Assembly (NCBI RefSeq): GCF_036226925.1
Contig: NZ_CP109031.1
Coordinates: 6,200,001 to 6,264,000 of the forward strand
Origin: Streptomyces sp. NBC_00659
Lineage (GTDB): Bacteria > Actinomycetota > Actinomycetes > Streptomycetales > Streptomycetaceae
DNA length: 64,000 nt
Direction: 5' to 3'
Shown: positions 9,914-17,382 of the stretch, one piece after another
Layout of the letters: each line of letters opens with the position of its first letter
Numbering within the stretch: the stretch's first letter is position 1
Made by a program: the position numbers and the translations under genes
Notes under the pieces: generated by a model
Databases searched by the model: none
The model's input: the letters and a program-made list of their open reading frames with translations, nothing else
What the model was told of the DNA's origin: nothing

Positions 9914-11470
9914 GTGGGACGACACAGTCGTCGGGGGCGGGCCGGCAAGACGGACGCCGCGCAGACGCGAGCGGACGAGGCGGCACCGGCTCCTGCGCCG
10001 GGCCTGGACGGCGTCCGCCGCACGGCGACACGCCCGCCCGGCTCCCTGGGTCCCTACCCGCCCTCGGGCGGCAGTCCGCAGCAGGGCGCACCACGATTCT
10101 CCGACGGCACTCCGGCGCACGGTTTTTCGCAGGTCGCGGACGGCACTCCCGCGCGAGGGGTGCCGCGCTACGCGGACGGGACCCCGGCCCACGGAGTTCC
10201 GCGCTTCCAGGACGGCACTCCGGCCCATGGAGTCCCGCGCTTCCAGGACGGCGCCCCTGTACGCGGGGTGCCGCGTTCCTTCGAGGGGACCCCGGCGCAC
10301 GGAACGCCGCGTCTCCCCGACGGGACCCCCGCCCACGGAATGCCGCAGGTACGGGGCGGGCATCCCGAGCAGCGTGAACAGGGCGGCGGCTGGGGCGAGT
10401 CGAGGGCCGGCGGGGCTCCTCAGGGCGCGTCCGCCGGACCGCGGGTGCCCCAGCAGCGCCAGCAGGCCGTGGCAGGACCCCGGCAGGCGTACGTCGACGC
10501 GTTCGACCTCGGCGAGCGGCAGAGCGGCGGCGCGGCGGGCCGGACGGCCGGCCCCCGTACGGGGTTCGACGACCCCGCCGACTGGAACGCCCAGCCCATC
10601 GGCACCGGAGACCGGCCGCTGCCGGAGGCCGGCGAGCAGGACGAGGGCAAGGCCCGCAAGGGGTGGGCGTTCACCGGGATCGCGGCGGCCGCCGTCACCA
10701 CCGTGCTGGCCGTCGTCGTGGCCGGGCAGATGGCCACGGGAGGGCACGACGCCGACGCGCGGGCGCAGTCCGCCGACGCGGGCGGCCGGGCGACCCAGGA
10801 CTCCGCCTCGCGCGGCGACGACCGGCCCACCCAGTCGGGACAGCCGCAGGTGGCCGCAGTGCCCCTGACGTACGCCCAGCAGATGGCCAGGACCTACCCG
10901 CTGGGGGCGAAGCTCAAGGCGTCGGGGAAGTTCGCCGCGGTGCCCGGAGTCGCCGAGGCGCCCGGCAAGGGCCGCAAGTACACCTACCGCGTCGACATCG
11001 AGCAGGGCCTCGATCTCGACGGCGCGCTCTTCGCCGACGCCGTGCAGAAGACCCTGAACGACAAACGGAGCTGGGCGCACGGCGGCGCCCGGACCTTCGA
11101 GCGGATCGATTCCGGCAAACCGGACTTCGTCATCACGCTGGCGAGTCCCGGCACCACCGCCGAGTGGTGCGCCAAGTCGGGGCTCGACACCACGGAGGAC
11201 AACGTGTCGTGCGACTCGGCGTCCACCGAGCGCGTCATGATCAACGCATACCGCTGGGCCCAGGGCTCCAAGACCTACGGCTTCGGTGACGAGATTCACG
11301 CCTACCGGCAGATGCTGATCAACCACGAGGTCGGCCACAGGCTCGGATACGGGCACGTCACCTGCGAGAAGGACGGCGACCTCGCCCCGGTCATGCAGCA
11401 GCAGACCAAGTTCCTCGACCACGACGGAATCCACTGTCTGCCCAACGCCTGGCCCTATCCCAAGAGTTGA
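9914..11470 (+). CDS. DUF3152 membrane-anchored metzincin-like protein
   Basis: 518 residues. Residues 60-145 are a cytoplasmic low-complexity region with about eight copies of DGTPAHGVPRF-like units. A single membrane segment spans about 251-272 (WAFTGIAAAAVTTVLAVVVAGQ), so the C-terminal domain (about 315-518) is extracytoplasmic. That DUF3152 domain contains HEVGHRLGYGH (471-481), a full zinc-binding HExxHxxGxxH motif, and VMQQQT downstream as a possible Met-turn, plus four cysteines that could pair. This suggests an extracellular zinc protease of unknown target. GTG at 9914 has GAGGCGGGAA directly upstream. The mycobacterial homologue (Rv3207c) is also near moeZ. Confidence 0.88.
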   Translation: MGRHSRRGRAGKTDAAQTRADEAAPAPAPGLDGVRRTATRPPGSLGPYPPSGGSPQQGAPRFSDGTPAHGFSQVADGTPARGVPRYADGTPAHGVPRFQDGTPAHGVPRFQDGAPVRGVPRSFEGTPAHGTPRLPDGTPAHGMPQVRGGHPEQREQGGGWGESRAGGAPQGASAGPRVPQQRQQAVAGPRQAYVDAFDLGERQSGGAAGRTAGPRTGFDDPADWNAQPIGTGDRPLPEAGEQDEGKARKGWAFTGIAAAAVTTVLAVVVAGQMATGGHDADARAQSADAGGRATQDSASRGDDRPTQSGQPQVAAVPLTYAQQMARTYPLGAKLKASGKFAAVPGVAEAPGKGRKYTYRVDIEQGLDLDGALFADAVQKTLNDKRSWAHGGARTFERIDSGKPDFVITLASPGTTAEWCAKSGLDTTEDNVSCDSASTERVMINAYRWAQGSKTYGFGDEIHAYRQMLINHEVGHRLGYGHVTCEKDGDLAPVMQQQTKFLDHDGIHCLPNAWPYPKS

Positions 11471-11490
11471 CGGAAAGTGCCCGTATCGCT

Positions 11491-11519
11491 TTGACATGCG
11501 GAAAAAGATCGTTCATATT
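11491..11519 (+). promoter_or_regulatory. Near-consensus promoter of the leader peptide and ABC importer
   Basis: TTGACA (11491-11496), a 17-base spacer and CATATT (11514-11519). The expected start of transcription falls on or next to the A of the leader ATG at 11526, implying a leaderless mRNA. Confidence 0.75.
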
Positions 11520-11530
11520 TTCCGCATGTC
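11493..11530. promoter_or_regulatory. Candidate operator: 13-bp inverted repeat over the promoter
   Basis: GACATGCGGAAAA (11493-11505) and TTTTCCGCATGTC (11518-11530) are perfect inverted arms separated by 12 bases. They cover the -35 box, the -10 box and the leader start codon, the position expected for a dimeric repressor. Confidence 0.65.
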
Positions 11531-11618
11531 CTCCCGTCACGCCTCCGTTCGCGCCGCCATCGAGCTGGCGCTCATCGGCGTGACCGCGCTCTGCGTGGCC
11601 GACATTCACTGTTGCTGA
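11526..11618 (+). CDS. Leader peptide, 30 aa, ending Cys-Cys
   Basis: A 30-codon ORF reading MSSRHASVRAAIELALIGV and then TALCVADIHCC before TGA. It begins at the predicted transcription start, so it is probably translated from a leaderless mRNA. Three of the last eight residues are cysteine, with two adjacent at the end. Short actinobacterial leader peptides rich in C-terminal cysteine are known ahead of sulfur and cysteine metabolism genes, where ribosome stalling at Cys codons controls the operon. It precedes a complete peptide-type ABC importer by 200 bases. Attenuation is inferred, not shown. Confidence 0.7.
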   Translation: MSSRHASVRAAIELALIGVTALCVADIHCC

Positions 11619-11818
11619 CGCCCGCCCCCGGCGAGTGCGTCGCTCTCCTTCCCGTCTTGTTCCCGTGCGCTTCCGAACCTCCGCGGTTCGGCGCGCCCGT
11701 GCCCCTTTCGGTCCGGTCTGATTCCGACGCCTGACGCCCTGGGCGAGCTCTGCGCTCCGCTGTCTCACTCCGTGTCATTCCGTCTCAGTATTCGAGTCAT
11801 CCGAGAGGTCGTCTTCCG
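11619..11818 (+). promoter_or_regulatory. 200-nt leader between the Cys peptide and the importer
   Basis: It contains the hairpin CCGAACC-TCCGC-GGTTCGG (11673-11691), which can be extended by GCGC pairing on both sides. This is a candidate attenuator or anti-attenuator element. No classical T-run follows. GAGAGG upstream of 11819 is the likely ribosome site of the lipoprotein gene. Confidence 0.45.
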
Positions 11819-13537
11819 ATGCGTCAATCGTCCGTCATAGCGCGCCGCGTGGCCGCGGCATCCGTCAGCCTGGTCGTGGCAGCGGGCGCCGCCGCCTGCG
11901 GGCCGAAGGACAACGATGCCAAGAGCTCCGGTGGCGACTCCCAGCCTCACAAGGGCGGCACGCTCACCGTCCTGAACTCCAATCCGCAGTCGGACTTCGA
12001 CCCCGCGAGGCTCTACACCTCCGGCGGCGGCAACGTGCCCTCGCTCGTCTTCCGTACGCTCACCACCCGCAACCGCGAGGACGGGGCCGCCGGTGCCGAG
12101 GTCGTCCCCGACCTCGCCACGGACACCGGCCGCCCGAGCGAGAACGCGACCGTGTGGACGTACACCCTGAAGAAGGGCCTCAAGTTCGAGGACGGCACGC
12201 CGATCACCTCCGCCGACGTCAAGTACGGCATCGAGCGCTCCTTCGCCGCCGAACTCTCCGGCGGCGCGCCCTACCTGAGGGACTGGCTCATCGGCGGCGC
12301 CGACTACCAGGGTCCCTACAAGGACAAGAAGGGCCTCGACTCGATCGAGACGCCGGACGCGCTGACCATCGTGTTCCACCTGAACAAGCCCGAGGGCGAG
12401 TTCCCCTACCTGGCCACGCAGACGCAGTTCACGCCCGTCCCGAAGGCCAAGGACACCGGCACGAAGTACGAGGAGCACCCGGTCTCCTCGGGCCCGTACA
12501 AGGTCGTCAAGAACGAGAACGACGGCGAGCGTCTCACCCTGGAGCGCAACACCCACTGGTCCGCGTCGACCGACGCCGAGCGCAAGGCCTACCCGGACAC
12601 GATCGACGTACGGTCGGGGCTGGACTCCTCCGTGATCAACCAGCGGCTCTCCTCCTCCCAGGGCGCCGACGCCGCCGCCGTCACCACGGACACCAACCTC
12701 GGCCCGGCCGAGCTCGCCAAGGTGACCGGGGACAAGGCGCTGGCCTCGCGCGTCGGAACCGGCCACTTCGGCTACACGAACTACCTCGCCTTCAACCCGA
12801 AGGTGAAGCCGTTCGACGACCCGAAGGTGCGCCAGGCGATCTCGTACGCCGTCGACCGCAGCTCGGTGATCAACGCCGCGGGCGGCTCGTCCCTCGCCGA
12901 GCCGGCGACGACGTACCTGCCGAACCAGAAGTCCTTCGGCTACACGCCGTACGACCTCTTCCCGGCGGGCGCCTCCGGCAACGCGGCCAAGGCCAGGGAA
13001 CTGCTGGCGCAGGCGGGCCACAAGAACGGCCTGACCATCACGCTCACGCATTCCAACAGCAAGGACTTCGAGACCAGCCCGGAGATCGCGACCGCCGTCC
13101 AGGACGCGCTCAAGAAGGCCGGCATCACCGTCAAGCTCCAGGGTCTCGAGGAGAACGACTACAGCGACAAGATCCACAGCGCGAAGAACGAGCCCGGCTT
13201 CTTCCTCGCCCACTGGGGTGCCGACTGGCCCTCCGGCGGTCCCTTCCTGGCCCCGATCTTCGACGGCCGGCAGATCGTCAAGGACGGCGCCAACTTCAAC
13301 TCCGGCTTCCTCGACGACAAGTCGGTCAATGGCGAGATCGACGCGATCAACAAGCTGACCGATCTCGACGAGGCCGCCAAGCGCTGGGGCGCGCTGGACA
13401 AGAAGATCGGTGAGCAGGCGCTGACCGTGCCGCTGTTCCACCCCGTCTACAAGCGCCTGTACGGCGAGGGCGTCAAGAACATCGTGATCAGCGACTGGAC
13501 CGGCGTTCTGGACATCTCCCAGGTCGCGGTGAAGTAG
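11819..13537 (+). CDS. ABC transporter substrate-binding lipoprotein (SBP family 5)
   Basis: 572 residues. An N-terminal Arg-containing signal sequence leads to a lipid-attachment Cys27 (VAAGAAACGP); the -3 residue is Ala rather than the usual Leu. The rest is an SBP_bac_5 domain: GGTLTVLNSNPQSDFDPARLYTS at the start, WTYTLKKGLKFEDGTPITSADVKYGIERS as the family signature, and YAVDRSSVI further on. It should capture a peptide or peptide-like nutrient outside the membrane and deliver it to the permeases encoded next. The first permease gene starts four bases after the stop. The Cys-rich leader upstream suggests the ligand contains sulfur; the family includes GsiB (glutathione) as well as Dpp/Opp proteins. 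Confidence 0.93.
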   Translation: MRQSSVIARRVAAASVSLVVAAGAAACGPKDNDAKSSGGDSQPHKGGTLTVLNSNPQSDFDPARLYTSGGGNVPSLVFRTLTTRNREDGAAGAEVVPDLATDTGRPSENATVWTYTLKKGLKFEDGTPITSADVKYGIERSFAAELSGGAPYLRDWLIGGADYQGPYKDKKGLDSIETPDALTIVFHLNKPEGEFPYLATQTQFTPVPKAKDTGTKYEEHPVSSGPYKVVKNENDGERLTLERNTHWSASTDAERKAYPDTIDVRSGLDSSVINQRLSSSQGADAAAVTTDTNLGPAELAKVTGDKALASRVGTGHFGYTNYLAFNPKVKPFDDPKVRQAISYAVDRSSVINAAGGSSLAEPATTYLPNQKSFGYTPYDLFPAGASGNAAKARELLAQAGHKNGLTITLTHSNSKDFETSPEIATAVQDALKKAGITVKLQGLEENDYSDKIHSAKNEPGFFLAHWGADWPSGGPFLAPIFDGRQIVKDGANFNSGFLDDKSVNGEIDAINKLTDLDEAAKRWGALDKKIGEQALTVPLFHPVYKRLYGEGVKNIVISDWTGVLDISQVAVK

Positions 13538-13541
13538 CACC

Positions 13542-14609
13542 GTGAGCGAGGCACTTGTCGCCTCCCCGGCCCCCGCGGCGGACTCGTCCGCCGCGGGGGC
13601 CTCGGGGGCCCGTCAGTTCTGGCGGCGGCTGCGTGCGCAGCGCGCCGCCCTCGTCGCGGCGGCCCTCGTCGCGCTGCTCGTCCTGATCGCGCTCGCCGCA
13701 CCGCTGCTCACGGCGATCGAGGGCCAGGACCCCACCACCTACCACCCCTCGCTGGTGGACTCCGCGCGCGGCGGCGTCCCCGTCGGCCCGCTCGGCGGCA
13801 TCGGCGCCGACCACTGGCTCGGCGTCGAACCCCAGACCGGCCGCGACCTGTTCGCACGCCTCGTCTACGGTGCCCGGGTCTCCCTGGGCGTCGCCCTGGG
13901 GGCGACGGTCGTGCAGGTCCTCATCGGGGTCGTGGTCGGTGTCGCCGCCGCCCTCGGCGCGCGCTGGGTCGATCAGCTGCTGAGCCGGTTCACCGAGATC
14001 ATCATCGCGATGCCGCTCATGATCATGTCGCTGGCCCTGCTGGCGATCGTGCCCAGCGGCTTCCCCCGGCCCCTGCTGGTCGCACTCGTCATCGGCCTGA
14101 TCGCCTGGGGCAACGTCGCGAAGATCACGCGAGCCCAGACGCTCGCCCTCAAGGGACTCGACTACGTCTCCGCCGCCCGGCTCAGCGGCTGGGGCACCTG
14201 GCGGATCGCCCGCCGCGAACTGCTGCCGGGACTCGCCGCGCCGGTCATCACGTACGCCGCGCTCCTCGTCCCGATGAACATCACGGTGGAAGCCGCGCTC
14301 TCCTTCCTGGGGGTCGGAGTCAAGCCCCCGACTCCCTCATGGGGACAGATGCTCACCGCCGCCGACGTCTGGTACCAGGCCGCCCCGCAGTACCTGCTGC
14401 TGCCCGCCGGCGCGCTCTTCGTCACCGTCCTGACGCTGACCGTCCTGGGCGACGGCATCCGCACGGCCCTCGACCCGCGCGCGGCCTCCCGCCTGCGCGT
14501 CGGCACCGGCCGCAAGCAGGAGGCCAAGGCGGACGCGGACACCAGGAAGTCCCCGGCGGACACGAGCGCCGAGGCGGAAGCCGCCGGCGGGAAGGGGGCC
14601 GGGGCATGA
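13542..14609 (+). CDS. ABC transporter permease (DppC/GsiD type)
   Basis: 355 residues. A cytoplasmic N-terminal extension is followed by an OppC_N-like segment (FWRRLRAQRAALVAAALVALLVLIALAAPLL), a periplasmic-side loop with GRDLFARLVYGARVSL, and then the BPD_transp_1 domain with the EAA-type loop AARLSGWGTWRIARRELLPGLAAPV, which contacts the ATPase. About six membrane spans. The last 45 residues are a charged tail. GTG at 13542 is five bases after the previous stop codon, so it is co-translated. The stop overlaps the ATG of the second permease by four bases. Confidence 0.92.
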   Translation: MSEALVASPAPAADSSAAGASGARQFWRRLRAQRAALVAAALVALLVLIALAAPLLTAIEGQDPTTYHPSLVDSARGGVPVGPLGGIGADHWLGVEPQTGRDLFARLVYGARVSLGVALGATVVQVLIGVVVGVAAALGARWVDQLLSRFTEIIIAMPLMIMSLALLAIVPSGFPRPLLVALVIGLIAWGNVAKITRAQTLALKGLDYVSAARLSGWGTWRIARRELLPGLAAPVITYAALLVPMNITVEAALSFLGVGVKPPTPSWGQMLTAADVWYQAAPQYLLLPAGALFVTVLTLTVLGDGIRTALDPRAASRLRVGTGRKQEAKADADTRKSPADTSAEAEAAGGKGAGA

Positions 14610-15604
14610 ACGGCTTCGGAGGATTCGTCCTGCGCCGCTCCGCCGGCACCGTGATCACCCTGCTCGCCATCTCGGTGATCGTCTACGTCGTCTTCTTCGT
14701 CACCCCCGGCAACGTCGCCCAGATCACCTGCGGCCCCCGCTGCTCCCCGGAGCAGGTGCACCAGGTGGCGCAGCAGTTGAGGCTCGACGACCCCCTCTAC
14801 GTGCGCTACTGGCACTTCCTCCAGGGCATCCTCGTCGGCCAGGACTACTCCACGGGCACGTCCGTGGAGCACTGCTCGGCGCCCTGCCTCGGCCAGTCGT
14901 ACCAGAGCGGCCGGCAGGTGACCCAGCTGATCGTCACGAAGCTGCCGGTCAGCCTGTCGCTCGTGTTCGGCGCGATGATCCTCTGGCTGATCCTCGGCGT
15001 CGGCACCGGAGTCCTGTCCGCATGGCGGCGCGGCCGTCTCACCGAGCGCGTGCTGACCGGCGTCACGCTCGCGGGCGTGGCCACCCCCGTCTTCGTGATC
15101 GGCCTCGTGCTGATGATCGTCGTCTGCGGGCAACTGAGGCTGCTGCCCTTCCCGCAGTACGTCAGCCTCACCGAGGATCCCGAACAGTGGGGCTGGAACC
15201 TGCTGTTGCCATGGCTCTCCCTGGCCCTCATCGAGGCCGCCACGTTCGCCCGGCTCACCCGGGCGTCGATGCTGGAGACGCTCGCCGAGGACCACATCCG
15301 GACCTTTCGCGCGTACGGCGTCGGCGAGCGGTCGATCATCGGCCGGCACGCGCTGCGCGGGGCGTTCGCGCCGATCATCGCGCTCAACGCCAACAACGTC
15401 GGCGGTGCCATCGGCGGAGCGGTGCTCACCGAAACCCTCTTCGGGCTGCCCGGCATCGGCCAGGAACTGGTGCACGCGGTGAACGTCGTCGACCTTCCCG
15501 TGGTCGTCGGCATGGTCCTGGTCATCGGCTTCTTCGTGGTCATCGCCAACGCCGTCGCGGACGTGCTCTACGCGGTGGCCGACCGACGGGTGGTGCTGGC
15601 ATGA
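14606..15604 (+). CDS. ABC transporter permease (DppB/GsiC type)
   Basis: 332 residues. An N-terminal membrane helix (TVITLLAISVIVYVVFFVTPG) is followed by an external loop with two Cys pairs (CGPRCSPEQ and CSAPCLG), unusual for this family and possibly disulfide-bonded. The transport domain carries the EAA loop YGVGERSIIGRHALRGAFAPIIA and the family end ETLFGLPGIGQELVHAV. It starts with an ATG that overlaps the preceding TGA (ATGA) and ends overlapping the ATPase start in the same way, so the operon is tightly coupled. With its partner it should form the transmembrane channel of the importer. Confidence 0.92.
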   Translation: MNGFGGFVLRRSAGTVITLLAISVIVYVVFFVTPGNVAQITCGPRCSPEQVHQVAQQLRLDDPLYVRYWHFLQGILVGQDYSTGTSVEHCSAPCLGQSYQSGRQVTQLIVTKLPVSLSLVFGAMILWLILGVGTGVLSAWRRGRLTERVLTGVTLAGVATPVFVIGLVLMIVVCGQLRLLPFPQYVSLTEDPEQWGWNLLLPWLSLALIEAATFARLTRASMLETLAEDHIRTFRAYGVGERSIIGRHALRGAFAPIIALNANNVGGAIGGAVLTETLFGLPGIGQELVHAVNVVDLPVVVGMVLVIGFFVVIANAVADVLYAVADRRVVLA

Positions 15605-17382
15605 GCGACTCTTCCCCGACCCTCTCCACGCTTCGGCAGGCGGTTCCGGGCGCTTCACCCGGTACCTCCGCGGACTCCTCCACGGCCGGTTCCGCCGCCC
15701 CGCTGGTCGAAGTGAACGACCTCGTCGTCGACTTCGGAGGCCTGCGTGCCGTCGACGGGCTCTCCTTCCGGCTGGAGAAGGGCGCCGCACTGGGTCTGGT
15801 CGGCGAGTCCGGCTCGGGCAAGTCCACCGTGGCGTCGGCCCTGCTGGCGCTCCACCGGGGCACCGGAGCACACGTCGACGGCACGGTCCGCGTGGCCGGC
15901 GTCGACGTGCAGCGGGCGTCCGACGACGAACTGCGGCGGCTGCGCGGCGGAAAGGCCGCCATGGTCTTCCAGGACCCGCTGTCCTCCCTCGACCCGTACT
16001 ACGCGGTGGGCGACCAGATCGCCGAGGTGTACCGGGTGCACACCAAGGCGTCCCGGCGAGCGGCACGCGCGCGTGCGGTGCGGACGCTGGACCGTGTCGG
16101 CATCCCCGACGCCGCCCGCCGGTCCCGCTCGCGCCCGCACGAGTTCAGCGGCGGCATGCGCCAGCGCGCCCTCATCGCCATGGCGCTGGCCTGCGAACCC
16201 GAGCTCCTGATCGCCGACGAGCCCACCACGGCCCTGGACGTGACCGTCCAGGCGCAGATCCTCGACCTCCTGCACACCCTGCGGCAGGAGACCGGCACAG
16301 GGCTGCTGCTGGTCACCCACGACGTCGGGGTCGCGGCCGAGAGCGTCGACGAGATCCTGGTCATGCGGCACGGACGCGCGGTCGAGCACGGGCCCGTGGG
16401 CGCTGTCCTCGGCGCGCCCCGGGAGCCGTACACCCGCGAACTCCTCGGCGCCGTCCCACGGGTGGACACACCTCGGGCGCCCCGGCCGGCCCGGCTCGAA
16501 GACGGTGCCGCTCCGGCCGGGGGAGCCGGGCCGGACGACGTCCTCCGGCCCGATGACGTCGTCCTCGAGGCGGCCGGGCTCCGGCGGGAGTTCGGGCGCG
16601 GGAAGCGGCGGTTCGCCGCCGTCGACGACGTGTCGCTGAGCGTCCGCCGGGGCGAGACCCTCGGCATCGTCGGCGAGAGCGGCAGCGGGAAGACGACCCT
16701 GGGAAGGATGCTGGTCGGACTCCTGGAACCCACTGCCGGCGTGGTCCGTCACGAGGGGCGCGTACAGTCCGGCGTCCGCCCCTCGGTGCAGATGGTCTTC
16801 CAGGACCCGGTGTCGTCCCTCAACCCGCGGCGCAGTGTGGGCGAGTCCATCGCCGACCCGCTGCGGGCGCGAGGGATGAGGGTCCCCCCGCTCGGGCGAA
16901 GCCGAGAGTGGGGGAGGGACGAGGGGCGCATCCGGGGGCGCGTACAAGAACTGCTGGAGCGCGTGGGGCTCGAAGGGGCGCACTACGACCGCTATCCCCA
17001 CGAGTTCAGCGGCGGACAGCGCCAGCGCGTCGGCATCGCGCGGGCCCTGGCCGCCGAACCGCACGCCATCGTGTGCGACGAGCCGGTCTCCGCGCTCGAC
17101 GTCACCACGCAGGCCCAGGTGGTCGCCCTGCTCGGCGAGCTGCAACGGGAACTCGGGCTCGCGCTGGTGTTCGTGGCGCACGATCTCGCGGTCGTGCGCC
17201 AGGTCAGCGACCATGTGGCCGTGATGCGGCGCGGCCGGATCGTCGAGTACGGTCCCGCCGACGAGGTCTACGAGAGCCCCCGCGACCCGTACACCCGGCA
17301 GCTGCTGGCCGCCGTACCGGCGCTCGACCCGGAGATCGCGGCACGGCGCCGCGCGCGGCGCGAGGAGGCGTCCCCGGCGTGA
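15601..17382 (+). CDS. Fused double ATP-binding protein of peptide importer (GsiA-like)
   Basis: 593 residues containing two complete ABC domains. First: Walker A at 68-76 (GESGSGKST), signature FSGGMRQR at 182-189 and Walker B LLIADEPTTALD. Second: Walker A at 358-365, signature FSGGQRQR at 469-476 and Walker B IVCDEPVSALD. Both end in the oligopeptide-type HxPYTRxLL region. Dpp/Opp systems usually encode the two ATPases separately, while the glutathione importer GsiA is a fused protein, which supports a Gsi-like layout. Residues about 427-441 (GMRVPPLGRSREWGRDE) are encoded by a palindromic repeat inserted in frame in the second domain, in the variable region between the Q-loop and the signature, so activity is probably kept. 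Confidence 0.92.
   Translation: MSDSSPTLSTLRQAVPGASPGTSADSSTAGSAAPLVEVNDLVVDFGGLRAVDGLSFRLEKGAALGLVGESGSGKSTVASALLALHRGTGAHVDGTVRVAGVDVQRASDDELRRLRGGKAAMVFQDPLSSLDPYYAVGDQIAEVYRVHTKASRRAARARAVRTLDRVGIPDAARRSRSRPHEFSGGMRQRALIAMALACEPELLIADEPTTALDVTVQAQILDLLHTLRQETGTGLLLVTHDVGVAAESVDEILVMRHGRAVEHGPVGAVLGAPREPYTRELLGAVPRVDTPRAPRPARLEDGAAPAGGAGPDDVLRPDDVVLEAAGLRREFGRGKRRFAAVDDVSLSVRRGETLGIVGESGSGKTTLGRMLVGLLEPTAGVVRHEGRVQSGVRPSVQMVFQDPVSSLNPRRSVGESIADPLRARGMRVPPLGRSREWGRDEGRIRGRVQELLERVGLEGAHYDRYPHEFSGGQRQRVGIARALAAEPHAIVCDEPVSALDVTTQAQVVALLGELQRELGLALVFVAHDLAVVRQVSDHVAVMRRGRIVEYGPADEVYESPRDPYTRQLLAAVPALDPEIAARRRARREEASPA
16881..16917. repeat. Streptomyces-type palindromic repeat inside the ATPase gene
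   Basis: GGTCCCCCCGCTCGG / GCGAAG / CCGAGAGTGGGGGAG forms an imperfect inverted repeat of the kind scattered between Streptomyces genes. Here it lies within coding sequence without breaking the frame. Confidence 0.65.

Follow-up and report, generated by a model that had tools for sequence, protein, structure and literature searches.

The present work describes a leader peptide and an importer operon within a 64,000 nucleotide (nt) stretch of DNA from Streptomyces sp. NBC_00659 (NCBI RefSeq assembly GCF_036226925.1, contig NZ_CP109031.1, positions 6,200,001 to 6,264,000 of the forward strand), which is referred to here as the window and numbered from its first letter. Within the window, a 30-codon open reading frame (ORF) with its own promoter precedes the genes for an ATP-binding cassette (ABC) importer, and codon 29 of this ORF is a cysteine codon, UGU, that is unchanged in all of the Streptomyces leaders compared. 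It is very likely that the leader forms part of a cysteine- or sulfur-responsive attenuator. The full explanation that we favor, viz. a cis-acting, cysteine-responsive attenuator that works at UGU29 and controls an importer whose substrate contains sulfur and is probably peptide-like, is held with only slightly less confidence, and the assignment of UGU29 as the sensing codon is, taken by itself, probable.

A fixed UGU codon in two families of leaders

The codon of Cys29 is TGT in 120/120 Streptomyces leaders, and the pattern by which these leaders were located prescribed a Cys at position 29 and never its codon. In a second set of loci, anchored on the substrate-binding protein (SBP) of the operon, Cys29 is TGT in 79/79 pattern-matched leaders and likewise, by eye, in the remaining locus, L292. 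The Cys codons of the operons in the same loci, counted where tblastn aligned at 60% identity or more, are TGC in 552 cases and TGT in 12 (12/564), and seven coding sequences of the window contain 20 TGC and 4 TGT codons. The other Cys residues of the leaders are TGT in 9/78 cases at residue 23 and in 1/20 at residue 30. Leaders from outside the genus, sampled as 20 loci, have TGT for the Cys that follows VAD-x-x in 20/20 cases; all Cys codons past VAD comprise 42 TGT and 6 TGC, and those preceding VAD are TGC in 6/6. The comparison of relatives suggests that the sensing is done by one Cys codon, and its rare spelling as UGU points to a sensor fussier than a run of cysteines would be. A single tRNA-Cys gene, read by ARAGORN as having the anticodon GCA, was found in the genome by a pattern in which the anticodon may begin with either G or A and that could miss a divergent second gene.

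A TGT codon also marks a second leader family, NF042934 (cis_reg_atten), which has 9 members above the cut-off in the window genome and was sampled as 49 loci, drawn from that genome together with 20 related ones. Among the pattern-matched leaders the corresponding Cys is always TGT (38/38), and their other Cys codons are TGC 30 times and TGT 3 times. Another 11 of the 49 loci are off the pattern, and reading them gives TGT in L212, L216, L234, L238, L245, and L248, so that TGT is present in 44 of the 45 leaders read and TGC in 0 (L222–L225, at 15 bits or less, were left out). These leaders resemble that of the window in being short ORFs that end near a TGT Cys, several of them before sulfur genes, and differ from it in having a peptide motif of their own (R-H-V-D-L-x-R...). 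Because the flanks of the codon differ between the two families, a shared RNA motif is a less likely cause than one that operates at the codon level.

The ORFs downstream of NF042934 leaders were chosen by eye and then typed by models (L209 and L211 left out). Those behind leaders above the cut-off include a luciferase-like monooxygenase, cysteine dioxygenase, an SsuA-family SBP, sulfite/nitrite reductase, rhodanese, an SBP_5 protein, and FMN reductase, and those behind weaker leaders include an acyl-CoA-dehydrogenase-like protein, a molybdopterin oxidoreductase, and TauD; the ORF downstream of L217 had no NCBIfam match at 1e-20. One of these leaders in the window genome (L213, 493903-493956), with a TGT Cys, lies ahead of a second SBP_5 gene.

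Leader family, distribution, and association with sulfur genes

Going by its profile score, the leader is of a kind that is already known and named, because the ORF matches the NCBIfam model NF042937 ("Ms4533A family Cys-rich leader peptide") over its full length (1-30/30) with 59.5 bits against a cut-off of 31. It is the single copy above the cut-off in the window genome. Across the genus the leader is found in 190/392 Streptomyces genomes at E<=1e-4, of which 188 exceed the cut-off, and across the class in 40/394 genomes at E<=0.001, 36 of them above the cut-off. These 40 genomes comprise 18 from the genus of the window (its own genome counted), 21 from a family designated f4, and 1 from a family designated f18. 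Family f4 is presumably Mycobacteriaceae, since Ms4533A is an M. smegmatis gene name and the downstream genes fit. From f4, 19 loci were fetched (G612 and G651, both with a match, were left out). The leader-anchored loci were picked by family score among the matches listed, and related genomes are not independent samples.

The genes that follow the leader outside the genus point to sulfur acquisition. In locus L138 of f4, the only f4 locus typed by models, the downstream genes encode a sulfate SBP, CysT, CysW, and a sulfate ATPase, each above its curated cut-off, and L127, L129, and L139 resemble L138 by eye. A distant ATPase lies approximately 3-5 kb beyond the leader in 19 of the 20 outside-genus loci (L145 is without one), and none of the 20 contains a match to the SBP or permeases of the window. 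In L145, an NF042937-like leader (29.9 bits, below the cut-off) stands ahead of an ORF resembling arylsulfatases, the resemblance covering 109 residues and scoring far under the cut-off. The f4 members fetched have another importer downstream (sulfate in L138) and mostly runs of Cys, two to four consecutive Cys being present in 16 of the 19 leaders; the window and other Streptomyces leaders differ in having a family-5 SBP importer downstream and mostly one conserved Cys. The window leader agrees with the family in its full-length match, its leaderless geometry, and the ABC importer downstream. The association of these leaders with sulfur genes is strong but indirect, and the proposal of a preliminary description of this DNA, that a conserved leaderless Cys leader precedes an operon of sulfur-acquisition type, is borne out by the sulfate transporter of L138 and by the NF042934 leaders before sulfur genes.

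Polycysteine leaderless small ORFs that act as attenuators in mycobacteria were reportedly described by Canestrari and colleagues in 2020. The mycobacterial polycysteine leaders, as portrayed by Shell et al. (2015, PMC4633059), resemble the present one in being short leaderless ORFs and in their C-terminal Cys and the sulfur operon downstream; they differ in that 100/120 Streptomyces members are without a contiguous Cys tract. Several reports describe Cys leaders in mycobacteria and in a small number of further actinobacteria (PMC1262725, PMC4633059, PMC9094748, PMC9031893, PMC13236596), and the consulted portion of a re-annotation of S. lividans lists eight leader peptides, none of them termed cysteine-dependent (PMC8079986). 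Our literature search, which covered few subscription papers and parts of those retrieved, found no Streptomyces Cys leader before an SBP_5 importer and no UGU rule.

Constraint on the leader peptide

The ORF encodes MSSRHASVRAAIELALIGVTALCVADIHCC and its final codons are TGT TGC TGA. The leader-locating pattern requires L14, L16, G/A18, V19, V24, D26, and C29, which are fixed by construction in the rows counted, and it matches 120 of the 121 Streptomyces loci examined, which are the window and 120 fetched ones; the single miss, L165, departs at V24 only and has a TAG stop. Residue 18 is Gly in 120/120 leaders although the pattern permits Ala. Residue 23 is Cys in 78 of the leaders and otherwise Ser (29), Ala (11), or Thr (2). 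At residue 30, Arg (86) is more frequent than Cys (20) and Ser (14), and 33/120 leaders contain a single Cys in the core. The preliminary description had rightly reported a 30-codon ORF with a Cys-Cys end and had made the conservation of this end across Streptomyces a test of its reading. By these counts the Cys-Cys end of the window leader is not the conserved feature, because residue 30 is Cys in only 20/120 leaders, and the contiguous Cys tract of the mycobacterial polycysteine attenuators, which the window leader has, is likewise limited to those 20. The same description had named free variation of the Cys codons as speaking against its proposal; C23 and C30 do vary, but C29 is kept.

The peptide is under selection from approximately residue 12 onward, because the ratio of nonsynonymous to synonymous differences (pN/pS) among 115 distinct leaders is low in the core (0.45 for codons 12-28, with 0.39 for codons 12-20, 0.65 for 21-23, and 0.27 for 24-29) compared with 1.19 for codons 3-10; these are uncorrected proportions from pairs that are not independent, and in this analysis 15 of the 20 outside-genus leaders aligned. 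The core motif, ELALIGV…VADI, is shared by the leaders of the 19 f4 loci. With UGU29 in the A site of the ribosome, residue counting puts VADI 1-4 residues and ELALIGV 9-15 residues ahead of the one in the P site, and the same two zones of the exit tunnel are used by known arrest peptides. The leader thus displays conservation at the amino acid level at distances expected of an arrest peptide. The E. coli tnaC leader and other arrest peptides are similar in their conserved residues at tunnel distances, a pause beside the stop codon, and the lack of a terminator; they differ in that their cue is a free amino acid, whereas the present leader would respond to uncharged tRNA, and the arrest here is putative. 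Help from the nascent peptide at UGU29 is a tentative proposal that we consider possible rather than likely. Somewhat more doubtful still is the specific combination of a one-codon sensor with a fixed UGU, read by G-U wobble by the sole GCA tRNA-Cys two codons before the stop and sensitized by the nascent ELALIGV/VADI peptide.

Linkage to the importer operon and layout of the locus

Orthologues of all four importer genes are present behind the leader in 60/60 long loci (approximately 9.6 kb), with SBP identities of 74-94%. A pair of Walker A motifs is present in the ATPase of 60/60 orthologues, although the best-matching ATPase stretch of L058 and of L065 spans one half only. Conversely, when the best 80 of 365 SBP relatives (86-96% identical, with species overlapping those of the leader-anchored set) were examined, the leader was recognized by the pattern in 79/80 loci and the 80th, L292, has a leader that carries V24L and ends in TAG. 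A search for the SBP in 20 of the 202 leader-negative genomes found no orthologue; 7 have relatives of 40-43% and 13 have nothing at E<=1e-100. Within the sampled genomes, the leader and the operon are present or absent together. The ORF is beyond what chance would give, as it exceeds the NF042937 cut-off and is conserved in the genus ahead of a fused-ATPase importer. We initially assumed orthology to the S. coelicolor genes SCO5476-SCO5480, an operon cited as a range of five tags, and have dropped this assumption.

The sigma-70-type promoter (TTGACA-17-CATATT) is the sole one in 701 nt (shuffled sequences: mean 0.0, sd 0.2), and its geometry predicts transcription to start at the ATG itself, at 11526. 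The near-consensus promoter with its start on the ATG, as given in the preliminary description, is accordingly confirmed as to its geometry, which is also that of the leaderless mycobacterial polycysteine attenuators. A -35 element was found in 115/120 leader-anchored Streptomyces loci (the window counted in), as TTGACA in 107, at a distance from the ATG of 36 nt in 90 loci, 37 in 20, and 35 in 5, including the window. The earlier gene calls (a family 5 SBP, two permeases, and a fused double ATPase) are all supported by domain models, and the gap is exactly 200 nt long and contains the stem that had been pointed out. Of the ATGA overlaps that had been reported, those at 14606-14609 and 15601-15604 are present; the junction between SBP and permease is a 4-nt gap. 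The features of the locus are listed in Table 1. A gene for a DUF3152 protein (9914-11470), with repeats like GTPAHGVPRF, ends 20 nt 5' of the leader promoter.

Table 1. Coordinates of the leader, its promoter, and the importer operon in the window
Feature	Position	Strand	Support
Promoter: -35 TTGACA, 17-nt spacer, -10 CATATT	11491..11519	+	10/12 match
Perfect 13-bp inverted repeat with 12-nt spacer across promoter and start codon; possible operator	11493..11530 (arms 11493-11505/11518-11530)
Leaderless leader-peptide ORF, 30 codons and TGA	11526..11618	+	NF042937
Conserved peptide core, codons 12-28, IELALIGVTALCVADIH	11559..11609	+	pN/pS 0.45
Cys29 codon TGT, proposed sensor codon	11610..11612	+	120/120
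Untranslated gap, 200 nt, C-rich and G-poor; presumed attenuation site	11619..11818	+
Local hairpin CCGAACC/GGTTCGG, from the preliminary description	11673..11691	+
Shine-Dalgarno-like GAGAGG 5' of the SBP start	11803..11808	+
SBP_bac_5 substrate-binding lipoprotein, 572 amino acids	11819..13537	+	Domain models
Permease, OppC_N and BPD_transp_1, GTG start	13542..14609	+	Domain models
Permease, BPD_transp_1_N and BPD_transp_1	14606..15604	+	Domain models
Fused double ABC ATPase (two ABC_tran), 593 amino acids	15601..17382	+	Domain models

Proposed mechanism and mode of attenuation

In the mechanism that we propose, transcription would begin at the ATG of the leaderless ORF, and the ribosome would translate 28 codons and arrive at UGU29, two codons ahead of the stop. 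When Cys-tRNA is ample, the ribosome would pass this codon, terminate, and depart, and the 200-nt gap would then lower expression of the operon; when Cys-tRNA is scarce, the ribosome would wait on UGU29, the gap would be blocked from acting, and the importer would be made.

A number of observations weigh against this explanation, and several of them bear on how the attenuation step itself would work. Codon choice is fixed at other places in the leader as well: in a null built from SBP columns of the same residue and species, none is as fixed as the CTG of L14 (0/31), the GCG of A15 (0/32), the GTG of V19 (0/20), or the GCC of A25 (0/32), so that part of the conservation may lie at the RNA level; for L16, G18, V24, and I27 the fixation is not unusual. 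In this null, which leaves out two loci with cut SBPs, Cys rests on one SBP column (TGC, 99%). L211, an NF042934 hit above the cut-off (29.4 bits), has no Cys; this leader of the window genome (769254-769298) reads ...RVSSAY-stop where the Cys codon would fall and may be decayed or a different leader. Elf and Ehrenberg (PMC1183508) trace biased regulatory codons to isoacceptors that are charged selectively, and they emphasize a high proportion of regulatory codons; this classical theory predicts that leaders with a single Cys, such as the 33 noted above, are poor sensors. Neither part of the theory is easily fitted to UGU29, because a single tRNA-Cys was found and there is often a single Cys codon; slow reading by G-U wobble or help from the nascent chain would be able to account for the UGU.

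Further points on the same side come from the gap. No intrinsic terminator (hairpin and U-run) of the kind used by classical attenuators was found in 11300-12000, Rfam gave no match at E<=1 within 11400-11900, and the gap of the window folds no better than shuffled sequences (z -0.15). There is no consistent RNA structure of the gap across loci: a weak consensus from 61 loci, with pairs in the leader and pairs to the Shine-Dalgarno region, did not recur with 117 loci, whose fold is limited to a 5-bp stem within the leader core that does not covary, and the hairpin at 11673-11691 was not recovered in the consensus folds. A conserved stem between GGCGU (codons 18-19) and ACGCC (past the stop) was also rejected as it is without compensation, ACACC being present in 1 of 32 loci with GGTGT. 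The ribosome-mask, complementarity, and C-over-G counts are based on 119 loci, one locus with a 1454-nt gap having been left out, and the 117-locus fold omits two more that lie outside the main cluster.

Two modes of attenuation remain, and the choice between them is about even, each being a reasonable proposal that falls a little short of an even chance. In translational attenuation of the type of the M. smegmatis polycysteine leaders, the leader RNA would pair with the ribosome-binding site (RBS) of the operon and a stalled ribosome would break this pairing. Two reports (PMC13236596, PMC9031893) portray attenuation systems of this kind and cite cysteine genes of M. smegmatis as regulated by translation attenuation, and the Shine-Dalgarno region is predicted to be mostly paired (mean unpaired 0.317). 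The gap, however, supplies most of the predicted partners of this region (5.2 of approximately 6.8 paired positions) and the stall zone hardly any (0.13), and placing a ribosome mask on codon 29 leaves the accessibility essentially as it was (0.317 to 0.318), with a rise of more than 0.1 in 10 loci and a fall in 9. The fold model with its mask thus lends no support to sequestration of the RBS by the leader RNA, the scheme reported for the mycobacterial polycysteine leaders. A covarying stem was not found in the stem check or the 117-locus fold, and a candidate anti-Shine-Dalgarno sequence in the gap was discarded, its complementarity being no better than that of shuffled sequences (mean z 0.24).

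In the other mode, similar to that of the E. coli tna operon, Rho would terminate transcription in the C-rich gap unless a ribosome paused near the stop codon shields the site of Rho entry. The gap consists of 0.411 C and 0.263 G (61 loci), its excess of C over G is +0.155 compared with 0.044 for other sense windows of the same loci, and the lack of a terminator noted above is in keeping with this mode. The excess is modest, lying in the top 5% of the sense windows of its own locus in 60/119 loci, these windows being the only comparison made, and the composition is weakly compatible with Rho. Rho was put forward in 2005 for mycobacterial cys leaders, in a report whose authors grade their own prediction as rather weak, the motifs not being conserved (PMC1262725).

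Alternative explanations

A perfect inverted repeat, which went unmentioned in the preliminary description, reaches from the -35 element to base +5 of the leader ORF and occurs once in the genome. This palindrome could be an operator, in which case a DNA-binding regulator would carry out the sulfur control and the leader would be secondary; we consider this improbable. Its 13-bp arms are perfect, and the complementary bases are different ones in some species. Among 31 triplet combinations, 5 distinct ones are fully complementary where 2.2 are expected (reached in 183/5000 shuffles), a combination test over the 31 triplet combinations gives 136/5000, and the pairing observed over 146 unique promoters is reached in 0/2000 permutations. 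Full 13/13 pairing is present, however, in only 2/145 unique promoters, 138/2000 permutations match the observed pairing when 48 nonredundant promoters are used, and six of the pairs stem from the ACATG of the -35 element and the CATG around the start codon. The covariation of the arms is weak, and a role of the repeat as operator in one clade is possible and not established.

The preliminary description had called the importer Gsi-like and had taken its ligand to be a sulfur-containing peptide that could be new. The importer resembles GsiABCD in its kinds of genes and its fused ATPase, and among NCBIfam models those of GsiA and GsiB score highest against the ATPase and the SBP, respectively. 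The window proteins differ in falling under every curated cut-off, by about 2- to 7-fold in bits (GsiA 507.6/1077, GsiB 84.8/594, GsiC 172.9/463, GsiD 184.2/484), and the best-scoring solved relative of the SBP is oligopeptide-binding protein 2 (OppA2) of clavulanic acid biosynthesis (2wok). A true glutathione importer is accordingly very improbable; of the overall first reading, the Cys leader ahead of a sulfur-type operon is supported, and the conserved Cys-Cys end, the Gsi membership, and a glutathione-type ligand are not. The ATPase gene also contains an in-frame palindromic element (16887-16915) in its second domain, amounting to about 12 residues more than in L039. Among the 22 relatives compared, of 49 matched, L054 carries a different insert of similar size at this spot and L062 a shorter one. 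With up to 2 mismatches allowed, the element is found three times in the genome, its own site counted.

The remaining alternative, that the 30 amino acid peptide is a small protein with a function in trans, would fit the amino-acid-level constraint on the core and is nonetheless hardly credible, as the synonymous fixation of the Cys codon and the fixed place before one operon favor a role in cis.

Significance for sulfur control in actinobacteria

The fixation of UGU in genomes that mostly use UGC is a sharp regularity, which the published theory of regulatory codons leaves unexplained because that theory needs several isoacceptors and one tRNA-Cys was found. A cysteine-responsive attenuator at UGU29 would tie a peptide-type importer of Streptomyces to sulfur control. 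If true, the UGU rule in two families of leaders would mean that a sulfur network of actinobacteria is read via a rare Cys codon.

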